6,626 nucleotides of DNA from the NCBI GenBank assembly GCA_029939035.1, contig JAOZTS010000003.1, positions 17,400 to 24,025 on the forward strand. The letters run 5' to 3'. The position numbers were made by a program, and so were the translations under genes. The DNA comes from Candidatus Altimarinota bacterium (lineage in GTDB: Bacteria > Patescibacteriota > Gracilibacteria > UBA1369 > LOWO2-01-FULL-3). Within the stretch, counting starts at the first letter, position 1. The number at the start of each line of letters is the position of its first letter. Under the pieces are notes generated by a model. The model worked only from the letters and a program-made list of their open reading frames with translations. It was not told the DNA's origin and did no database searches. Shown piece after piece: positions 1,640 through 5,018 of this stretch.

Positions 1640-1645
1640 GCCGTT

Positions 1646-1651
1646 ATTGTA
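1646..1651 (-). promoter_or_regulatory. Candidate -10 box for a leaderless mnmA transcript
   Basis: On the minus strand TACAAT ends six bases before the mnmA ATG, which would place transcription start on the A of the ATG. The same geometry is seen at the 326-residue hydrolase gene. No convincing -35 element is present and the site overlaps the end of the upstream operon, so this is at best a secondary internal promoter. Confidence 0.35.
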
Positions 1652-1661
1652 CTAGAAGTTT

Positions 1662-2281: not shown

Positions 2282-2638
2282 ATGAGTAGTGCAAATGCAT
2301 TAAAACAAGATTTAGATAGATCACTGCTAGAGTTTTCACAGTCTGACGACATTGAGAACCCTAAAACAGCACAACGCTTTGATGAAGCTGGCATATACAG
2401 AGCAGGATTTAGAGCAAGAATTGACTTTGCTGCTAGGGTTGAAAGTCGACTTTCAACAGCAATTATTGCTATGCAAAATGGAGATCGTGAACCAATAGAC
2501 GCTATTTCGCGAGAATTAGATAAAATCGGGGTTGAATTAGAGTTCAGCACTGACAGTGAAGGAAATTATCAGCTTGGAGATCCGGTTAATCATGTCATTC
2601 TACTATTCAGAGGAAAACTTGAAGATAGGCTTAAATAA
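2282..2638 (+). CDS. Hypothetical small soluble protein (118 residues)
   Basis: I do not recognise this protein. It is highly charged, has no cysteine, signal peptide or membrane segment, and reads as mainly helical from residue 3 to about 90. A short beta-like C-terminus contains NYQLGDPVNHVILLFRGKLEDRLK. Support for a real gene comes from a promoter-like TTGACA about 45 bases upstream, an ATG directly after an AT-rich leader, and a TAA stop that abuts a strong terminator hairpin. The start has no Shine-Dalgarno, like most genes here. It is divergent from the mnmA operon and convergent with the large RNA whose terminator it shares. A minus-strand open frame over the same bases is rich in Ser, Leu and Ala and looks like a shadow. 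Whether the protein has anything to do with the adjacent RNA is unknown. Confidence 0.65.
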   Translation: MSSANALKQDLDRSLLEFSQSDDIENPKTAQRFDEAGIYRAGFRARIDFAARVESRLSTAIIAMQNGDREPIDAISRELDKIGVELEFSTDSEGNYQLGDPVNHVILLFRGKLEDRLK

Positions 2639-2675
2639 AAACCACACCCATAAAGTTAAATATAAGTGTGGTTTT
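2631..2675 (-). terminator. Bidirectional Rho-independent terminator shared by the large RNA and the 118-residue gene
   Basis: A perfect 10-bp stem pairs 2638-2647 with 2666-2675 (AAAACCACAC/GTGTGGTTTT) around an 18-nt loop. On the minus strand it is followed by a U-rich run, TTTTTATTTAA, so it best terminates leftward transcription of the structured RNA. On the plus strand the tract is just TTTT within the stem, but the hairpin begins at the stop codon of the 118-residue gene and probably serves it too. Confidence 0.75.
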
Positions 2676-3247
2676 AAGAGTGCTGCTCAAGAGAAATACA
2701 ATGTACTCCGACCGAAGTCGAACGTTTAATCACCTTTCCTTATATTTGACGAATCAAATAGAAGAACGAAATTGAGATTCCATGACAACGTATCTTACGA
2801 TATGTCCGCCATACTTAGGATAATGTAGCGTTACCGCTATAAAACCGATAAGAACGATATAAAGTATCTGATTAAATAAATCTTGCGATCTATTTACGAT
2901 ACCAATACCCAGGAAGGTACTCTTTCTTTAGAAAGATATTCATATCAATCACCGTAATAATAAGACACAAACCCTATTATCGAAGTAATTGCTTCCAGTC
3001 ACATATCTCACAATATGAAACTGTAACGAGTAGAATTTCCACCGAAGTGGAGAAGTATTCCCCGAGAGGGAGCTGAACTCAAGAGACTATAATATTCAAG
3101 CGATAAGAATTATACTGATGTAAATCCGAAGACTTAAACCGGTAGAAGTCAAATCAAGAATACTGTAACCAATCGAGTTCGGCTCTCTCTGGAGAATGGG
3201 GCCTAAAATGTAAATGATCTTTTGTTTTTGTTTTTGGAAACTTTTCT
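2634..3247 (-). ncRNA. Large structured noncoding RNA, about 600 nt, unassigned family
   Basis: This interval has no gene of normal size but is dense in helices. Read on the minus strand: a long-range helix pairs 3175-3190 with 3065-3080 (14 of 16 pairs). 3088-3093 pairs with 3109-3114. A C(UUCG)G hairpin lies at 3038-3051. A two-part hairpin pairs 2996-2999/3020-3023 and 3002-3006/3013-3017. 2946-2952 pairs with 2985-2991. A UAAA-loop hairpin lies at 2921-2936. A 10-bp stem with a GCAA loop at 2873-2896 is enclosed by 2863-2868/2898-2903. GUAA-loop hairpins lie at 2826-2839 and 2784-2806. A 13-position stem with a UUCG loop lies at 2737-2766. Another C(UUCG)G hairpin lies at 2707-2722. UUCG and GNRA loops appear only on this strand, and most imperfect pairs are G-U here but A-C on the other, though the longest helix is an exception. 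A promoter and a terminator bracket it. No RNase P, tmRNA or intron core motif is visible. It could instead be a long 3' UTR of the hydrolase gene. Confidence 0.72.
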
Positions 3248-3253
3248 ACGTAT

Positions 3254-3282
3254 ACTATACCATATTGTAAAAACAGACGCAA
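3254..3282 (-). promoter_or_regulatory. Extended -10 promoter of the large structured RNA
   Basis: On the minus strand TATAGT (3259-3254, 5 of 6 to consensus) is preceded by TG plus one base, an extended -10. A 17-nt spacer separates it from TTGCGT (3282-3277), which keeps only the TTG of the -35. Predicted start is an A near 3247. The first 40 or so bases of the transcript are A-rich and look unstructured. Confidence 0.6.
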
Positions 3283-4341: not shown

Positions 4342-4377
4342 ATGGACGGAGATAAAAAGGGAGGATGCGGTTGCTAA
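4342..4377 (+). CDS. Possible 11-residue Gly/Cys peptide MDGDKKGGCGC
   Basis: The only ATG-initiated frame in the small transcript encodes MDGDKKGGCGC and stops at TAA, the stop used by every gene in this window. The predicted leader is 22 nt without Shine-Dalgarno, the same layout as the Gre-like gene. The Lys-Lys-Gly-Gly-Cys-Gly-Cys end could be a metal- or thiol-reactive peptide or a Cys-sensing leader peptide. However, the first codons lie in the GGACGG helix arm, and a frame this short can arise by chance. No processing or export gene is adjacent. Low confidence. Confidence 0.22.
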   Translation: MDGDKKGGCGC

Positions 4378-4395
4378 TTGATCGCTTACCGTCCT

Positions 4396-4425
4396 AGGGC
4401 ATGACTTGAAACTGCCCTTTTTTTT
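4396..4425 (+). terminator. Rho-independent terminator of the small transcript
   Basis: AGGGCA (4396-4401) pairs with TGCCCT (4413-4418) around an 11-nt loop. The run of T from 4418 to 4425 gives an eight-base U tract. This is the clearest terminator in the window. No gene of normal size lies immediately upstream on this strand, which is what argues for a short transcript there. Confidence 0.85.
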
Positions 4426-4499: not shown

Positions 4500-5018
4500 A
4501 TGCCTAAATCGAATTGTAGTTCTCCTAGTAGAACAGAAGCTTATGATAAATTACTTGAAAAAACTGAGTTTGATTTGGATATCCGCGTTGCACAAACTGC
4601 TTTGGCTGCAGACGCTCTTGATATAGGTACTTTTGATCAAACAGAGCCATGTAGTGCAAAGTATGGTGCGGAGGAGGAAGTGACTGCCTTGGATGCCATG
4701 CGTGCCAATGAGCAGGATGTTTTGTCGCAATTGACGGATACGCGAGAAAGCCTATCAGCTGTTGGACGTGATGTTGTTCAAGCCGGGACTATTGTTACCC
4801 TCAAATGCATTGACGACACTTACCTTGATACTGGTTTCAAAAAATCATTCTTTATTGTTCCAAATGGTGGAGGAAGAGAAATCGAATTATCTGATGGTAC
4901 AAAAATCACCTGTGTGAGCCCTGAAACTCCTGTTGCCGAGGAGTTGATAGGTTTAGTAATTGATGATGAGATTGAGATTGGAAGGGAAAGATTGATGCAG
5001 GTTGCGAGCATTGATTAA
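4500..5018 (+). CDS. GreA/GreB-like transcription factor with a divergent N-terminal region
   Basis: Residues 95-171 of this 172-residue protein match the FKBP-like C-terminal domain of Gre factors. They show an AGTIVTLKCIDD strand that opens the domain, then VSPETPVAEELIGLVIDDEIEI (139-160), the equivalent of the GreA SPLGRALLGKKVGDEVEV stretch, then a final strand. Gre factors bind the RNA polymerase secondary channel and stimulate transcript cleavage in backtracked complexes. Residues 10-92 are acidic helices that could form the usual coiled coil, but the GDLSENAEY tip motif that carries the catalytic acidic residues is absent. The turn region is instead DIGTFDQTEPCSAKYGAEEE (41-60). The protein may therefore bind polymerase without normal cleavage activity, like other secondary-channel regulators. 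The gene has its own strong promoter and no Shine-Dalgarno. The MATE gene starts 23 bp after the stop without an intervening terminator, so read-through is likely. Confidence 0.78.
   Translation: MPKSNCSSPSRTEAYDKLLEKTEFDLDIRVAQTALAADALDIGTFDQTEPCSAKYGAEEEVTALDAMRANEQDVLSQLTDTRESLSAVGRDVVQAGTIVTLKCIDDTYLDTGFKKSFFIVPNGGGREIELSDGTKITCVSPETPVAEELIGLVIDDEIEIGRERLMQVASID

Follow-up and report, generated by a model that had tools for sequence, protein, structure and literature searches.

An apparently undescribed family of large structured RNAs with a boxA-like leader from the Candidate Phyla Radiation

We found that an intergenic region of the window, by which we mean the whole 6,626-nt stretch of DNA analysed here, specifies a large structured RNA that almost certainly represents a real family, undescribed to judge by Rfam 15 and the literature searched. 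In the window's genome (G000) the locus occupies positions 2634-3282 of the minus strand, with a body of about 570 nt lying between two genes. The RNA family and its structure are solid. What the RNA does we infer, and we would put at about even the chance that it is a free-standing, likely trans-acting, untranslated scaffold or sponge of an undescribed family, with a repeated helix, P1, as its binding module. The parts of the locus are as follows:

3277..3282, minus strand: predicted −35 element TTGCGT, 3 of 6 positions against TTGACA; homologues have TTGACA- or TTGACT-like sequences at the equivalent place
3254..3259, minus strand: predicted −10 element TATAGT, 17 nt from the −35, a spacing shared by all ten other homologues
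3220..3235, minus strand: A-rich part of the 5′ leader, AAAAACAAAAACAAAA, invariant or nearly so in nine aligned homologues
3208..3219, minus strand: boxA-like element GATCATTTACAT, the strand's top match to a matrix of rRNA leaders
3175..3197, minus strand: 5′ arm of the P1 helix, in which 11 of 21 pairs changed on both sides (0 of 500 shuffles)
3163..3170, minus strand: 5′ arm of the inner helix P1b, GGUUACAG, 8 pairs, in six of nine aligned sequences
3093..3162, minus strand: variable distal hairpin of P1, very different in length between homologues
3083..3092, minus strand: region of the P1b 3′ arm, from the leader and P1 alignment
3057..3080, minus strand: 3′ arm of the P1 helix, AGCUCCCUCUCGGGGAA, from the same alignment, with an A·C or C·A centre in 12 of 15 hairpins
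3055..3063, minus strand: 5′ strand of P2, GGGGAAUAC, whose GGGGAA is common to P2 and the base of P1
3038..3051, minus strand: P3 hairpin with a UUCG loop, 5 of 5 pairs changed on both sides in eight sequences
2996..3023, minus strand: P4 hairpin with a GNRA-like loop, 6 of 9 pairs changed on both sides
2946..2991, minus strand: P5 stem-loop with the loop UUUGUG (GUUGUG in most homologues), 6 of 11 pairs changed on both sides
2700..2945, minus strand: variable central domain with several more hairpins in the minimum free energy (MFE) structure, covariation not counted; present in L002 and L012 and mostly missing from shorter homologues
2691..2699, minus strand: 3′ strand of P2, GUAUUUCUC
2680..2688, minus strand: conserved 3′ tail GAGCAGCAC (GAGUAGCAC in several homologues), from the domain 2 alignment
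2634..2675, minus strand: intrinsic terminator hairpin and U run, from the MFE structure

When the minus strand between 2634 and 3260 was folded, its MFE was −176.3 kcal/mol, compared with −137.5 (s.d. 6.5) for dinucleotide shuffles (n = 20, z = −5.9), none of which was as low; the plus strand was likewise above chance (z = −4.7). An earlier sequence-only reading of this DNA had counted at least twelve helices on the minus strand, and the 15 hairpins of the MFE structure bear this out. It had also listed three UUCG loops, two of them closed by C-G, together with one GCAA and two GUAA loops confined to the minus strand. These loops held up, none of them appearing in the plus-strand MFE structure, and only the closing pairs needed correction, all three UUCG loops being C-G-closed. 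The interval proved to be gene-free as proposed, with no minus-strand ORF of at least 50 aa inside 2634-3247 in the ORF list of the window; a 57-aa plus-strand ORF (2556-2729) overlaps the low end of the locus.

The promoter placed by that reading at 3254-3282 stood as to its location and not as to its strength. The sequence TTGCGT-N17-TATAGT (3282-3254, minus strand) matches the consensus at 8 of 12 positions, went unreported by a promoter scan with a threshold of 9 of 12, and was not significant for the window alone, as 47 of 500 shuffled versions of the upstream 70 nt reached the best score there. All ten other homologues carried a match of 9-12 of 12 whose hexamers are 17 nt apart and which lies 6-22 nt ahead of the leader, and the window's promoter is supported because of this position, an equivalent match lying at the same place in each of them. 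Seven of the ten matches were individually significant (at most 18 of 500 shuffles), and those of L011, L006 and L007 were not (42, 133 and 146 of 500). The strong terminator that had been claimed was recovered in the MFE structure as a 15-bp stem followed by a U run (2675-2634, minus strand); a terminator scan found none because its loop limit is 8 and the loop here exceeds that. A hairpin with a T run was also seen 3′ of the conserved tail in those homologues whose sequence was inspected.

Homologues were sought at the DNA level in 148 related genomes, 11 of which gave a match and nine of which carry the RNA. A locus in the same genus (L002) matched over its full length at 85%, and loci of another genus (L003 and L012) matched at 67% over half of the length; the remaining homologues from this search have the leader in common. 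In two candidate carriers, G139 and G098, the match was confined to the A-rich stretch with no P1, and both were rejected. A covariance model of the leader and P1, termed R1, was built from nine sequences, and a second model, R2, covers domain 2 (P2, P3, P4 and P5) and was built from six.

The aligned sequences revealed the compensatory substitutions that the sequence-only reading had named as a test, 11 of the 21 P1 pairs and 18 of the 34 domain 2 pairs having changed on both sides. The whole R1 structure was 94.9% paired in the nine sequences. Of five measures, four were equalled by none of 500 shuffles and the remaining one by 2 of 500; when the partners were slid by 1-3 columns, pairing fell to 42-57%. 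The P1b inner helix had none of its 8 pairs changed on both sides. For domain 2, the helices were placed by hand because RNAalifold on a MAFFT alignment of the whole domain gave a poor consensus. Pairing there reached 97.8% against 81.8% in shuffles, a percentage that therefore leans towards the proposed structure, while the both-side changes and the shuffles are independent of energy; 0 of 2,000 shuffles were equal on three measures and 1 of 2,000 on a fourth. P3 is the clearest helix of the domain. Covariation in P2 was weak (1 of 9 pairs), yet 98.6% of cells pair across eight sequences.

P1 has a distinctive centre. Its central mismatch, flanked by invariant pairs, was A·C in 11 and C·A in one of 15 hairpins, the others having A-U, U·U or G·U; this count excludes the outgroup loci and the second P1 of L093, whose centre was ambiguous. 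The helix occurs in four copies in L012 and in two each in L093 and L097. The GGGGAA segment has alternative partners, one in the 5′ strand of P1 and the other in the 3′ strand of P2; when folding was repeated with each forced, P1 was favoured over P2 by 3.0-12.3 kcal/mol in eight of eight sequences; the P2 state is therefore not the predicted ground state. A pseudoknot joining UUGUG of the P5 loop to CAC of the 3′ tail was considered by eye and is not claimed, a single co-changed pair (in L011) having been seen.

The RNA is patchily distributed. At a limit of E ≤ 0.1 and across 353 genomes of the class, R1 matched 11 of the 30 in the window's family plus three outside it, recovering G010 and G009 from outside its training set, with a single locus per genome barring adjacent P1 copies or strand-symmetric matches. 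No match was obtained in the other 19 family members, nearly complete genomes among them, and the RNA is therefore dispensable. The sole one of the three matches outside the family to survive the number of genomes searched was G055, from another family (locus L094, E = 4.8 × 10−5), which probably carries a homologue; those in G082 (E = 9.8 × 10−4) and G142 (E = 0.012), E values being per genome, are at chance level over 353 genomes. R2 returned its six training sequences and, weakly, G006 and G205, the latter match (E = 0.0084) being at chance level once the number of genomes is counted. It placed L004 and L006 correctly, directly after P1 (E = 1.2 × 10−5 and 3.3 × 10−5; 45.9 kb searched), and matched G006 and G011, neither of them in its training set, at the expected place. 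In a capped sample of 379 genomes from the phylum, with strict filters, R1 found the window's own match alone. The distance to the terminator ranged from 172 nt (in G001) to 1001 nt in homologues.

The leader by itself is more widespread than the RNA. At no more than two mismatches it occurred in 61 of the 353 genomes; 30 of the leader-matching loci (L014-L043) had no P1 motif and were set aside, as were six further candidates that appear coding or score at chance. Public contigs with the exact leader pattern numbered 29, of which 7 had the P1 motif and 22 did not. Five of the seven named contigs with both are labelled Candidatus Peregrinibacteria, and two metagenome-assembled genome contigs (L066 and L084) are labelled Nitrospirota/Nitrospirae; these two labels are probably wrong, both contigs corresponding to genomes of the window's own genus.

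The most conserved stretch of the RNA is this 5′ leader, AAAACAAA(A)GATCATTTACAT, which hardly varies among the nine aligned sequences. It was predicted to be mostly unpaired in 11 of 11 homologues (0.62-0.92, versus 0.25-0.41 for the rest). In each of 16 readable rRNA-operon leaders of relatives a boxA-type element, typically GATCTTTAACATTTAG, lies some 100-170 nt ahead of the 16S gene; 11 of these sites were located by pattern and five by eye, one of the five being poor. Scored against a matrix from the 16 leaders, a comparison made only after the leader had been noticed, the window's leader reached 10.5 bits, the best site of the 6,626-nt minus strand; the rRNA sites scored 13.6-18.2 bits on their own matrix in 15 cases and 8.7 in one. 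The leader ranked first among matrix sites in 10 of 14 loci, made up of 7 of the 11 in the family and all 3 outgroup candidates, and elsewhere ranked second (L012, L005), seventh (L009) and 31st (L093). The leader deviates from the rRNA elements in having A at position 5, where the 16 leaders have T or C, and T at position 8, where they mostly have A, and it is more uniform among homologues than are the rRNA sites.

The arrangement resembles that of an rRNA-operon leader, with a promoter, a boxA-like element in an unpaired leader and then a long helix-rich untranslated RNA. The relatives' boxA is GATCTTTAACAT-like; here, in contrast, two positions deviate, no rRNA follows, and an A-rich stretch absent from the 16 rRNA leaders precedes the element. 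CRISPR-array leaders offer a second likeness, in that a boxA stands close to the beginning of a long RNA that is not translated, although no repeat-spacer array is present here; for an engineered array, a part of PMC7862264 describes output raised about tenfold by a boxA near the start of the array RNA. As to how much deviation is tolerated, passages of PMC5725501 report that in Escherichia coli single changes at five positions of a boxA impair its function, and that a cryptic boxA with one critical position different showed no factor association. NusB is encoded in G000 (G000:C50:3112-3498, 140.5 bits) and in 26 of 30 family genomes. The curated cut-off of the Rho model was reached in 0 of 30 family genomes, some of them incomplete; G005 fell short by no more than about 2 bits, and weak matches of up to 48 bits, likely representing other ATPases, were seen in 14 further genomes. 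The family thus seems largely Rho-less, and a boxA would therefore serve elongation or folding and not the blocking of Rho. Nus factors at boxA have been argued, in a portion of PMC4807359, to act chiefly in rRNA folding or maturation and less in antitermination, so a boxA in a Rho-less lineage is no contradiction. That the leader functions as a boxA is, in our judgement, a little short of an even prospect.

Three outgroup loci, L094 (G055), L098 (G142) and L096 (G082), have a more rRNA-like boxA, GATCTTTTACA or GTTCTTTTACA, ahead of a long, hairpin-rich, gene-free stretch, with significance as a homologue for L094 only. A wider set of boxA-led RNAs may exist in the class.

The sequence-only reading had left a choice between a divergent member of an ornate RNA class and an undescribed one. 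The check that it proposed, the Rfam models against the minus strand, gave no family match in the window at E ≤ 1 with Rfam 15, and this absence, together with the covarying homologues, favours the second option. At E ≤ 10 four unrelated matches alone appeared, each under its gathering score, and 13 homologous loci gave no family at gathering score. We found no description of the RNA in the literature searched, whose incomplete coverage leaves an earlier description possible. Large structured bacterial RNAs beyond the housekeeping set are few, three of them with unprecedented architectures. OLE, ROOL and GOLLD, whose models are presumably part of Rfam 15, gave no covariance-model match at E ≤ 1 in the window; like the present RNA they are large, elaborately folded, free-standing bacterial RNAs of similar size with no coding role, and they differ from it in sequence and layout. 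The genes for ROOL and GOLLD belong to phages and prophages and often lie close to tRNAs; the present RNA sits among chromosomal genes. GOLLD is described in part of PMC12286853 as having one conserved and one variable region, a layout that resembles the one found here.

Several other explanations of the locus were weighed. Divergence of a housekeeping RNA (RNase P, 6S, tmRNA, SRP or another) deserves attention in this group, RNase P RNAs of the Candidate Phyla Radiation having diverged so far as to need lowered thresholds, according to a section of PMC8172020. G000, however, has its RNase P RNA (RF00010; G000:C13:5578-5965, 139.3 bits) and its 6S RNA (RF00013; G000:C112:4289-4448, 54.2 bits) elsewhere, the latter likewise a free-standing structured RNA with a separate gene, and no Rfam model matched at E ≤ 1, with tmRNA and SRP covered by the scans of the window and homologous loci only; we regard this origin as extremely unlikely. 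A cis-acting role, in which the RNA would be a giant attenuator leading into the tRNA-thiolation gene mnmA or its operon, gains from the terminator right ahead of a gene, the usual attenuator shape, and from the position of mnmA, which follows the RNA on the same contig and strand in six of nine carriers (G000, G001, G002, G010, G011 and G017; G019 and G024 are outside the counted set), with a cysteine desulfurase gene in between in G001. Against this, mnmA and the RNA are on different contigs in G006, G009 and G012, two ORFs, one of them facing the RNA, separate the two in the window, and neighbours differ at other RNA loci. Loci of mnmA without the RNA also exist, the model finding nothing at 24 of 25 and the 25th being the window's own RNA; a conserved RNA beside mnmA was looked for in genomes without a model match and was not found. 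In the window (1640-1652, minus strand) a TACAAT hexamer lies 6 nt ahead of the mnmA ATG, as it does in L002, which suggests that the mnmA message is leaderless and also speaks against a cis role. The RNA is very probably free-standing, and the attenuator explanation improbable.

A decaying remnant of a mobile element or prophage, bearing inverted repeats but no functional RNA, would fit the patchy presence (11 of 30), the shifting neighbours, the tandem hairpin copies and the lack of a protein. It would not fit the compensatory changes across genera or the retained leader and terminator, nor the one R1 locus per genome (neighbouring P1 copies and strand-symmetric matches aside); none of 12 viral contigs with the exact leader had the P1 motif, and 50,697 phage records gave no match, so that this account seems very unlikely. 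The RNA might instead act as a decoy for the machinery of ribosomal transcription, with its leader titrating NusB-S10, or its body a ribosomal protein, and so tying rRNA output to a regulator. The conservation of the leader, beyond that of any other stretch and more uniform than in rRNA boxA sites, is consistent with this, as is the ribosomal-protein sequestration proposed for OLE RNA in part of PMC12286853. Its two deviations from boxA argue the other way, and the RNA is similar to the 16S loci only in matches of 13-14 nt (E = 0.11 and 0.43), leaving the decoy an unlikely alternative to the scaffold or sponge reading.

As a free-standing scaffold or sponge, the RNA would have a transcription unit of its own, running from promoter to terminator, and would work untranslated, in trans. 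The leader would be a boxA-type site at which, much as in rRNA operons, RNA polymerase is loaded with NusB and ribosomal protein S10, and this loading could let the long untranslated transcript be completed and folded. The P1 stem, with its sequence-conserved core, its A·C mismatch and its one to four copies per RNA, would be bound by a partner, and the rivalry between P2 and the base of P1 may determine in which order folding proceeds. We propose the scaffold or sponge role through P1 only tentatively. Doubtful as a whole is a bolder picture, an rRNA-style gene without a ribosome product, whose borrowed leader would load NusB-S10 and whose one to four hairpin modules would serve as a sponge or scaffold that can be adjusted, perhaps to tune ribosome production itself, in a lineage of reduced bacteria without detectable Rho.

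The RNA adds a new large structured family for the Candidate Phyla Radiation, and its range of lengths and module numbers allows core to be told from ornament. Should the leader be a working boxA, it would give a handle on the role of Nus factors for a long structured non-ribosomal RNA without Rho.

Two other features of the window were observed. At 4342-4377 (plus strand) a tiny ORF, MDGDKKGGCGC, is followed by a hairpin and an eight-T run (4397-4425), and its equivalent in L002, MDGKKGGCGGC, holds the same place beside the RNA. GGACGG and CCGTCC are able to pair, and no Rfam match was obtained at E ≤ 1; the region 4342-4425 would either encode a conserved micropeptide ending in CxC or specify a further small RNA. 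A 172-aa ORF at 4500-5018 (plus strand) weakly matched the GreA/GreB C-terminal domain, below the threshold (21.2 versus 26.9 bits), and is possibly an elongation-factor relative.
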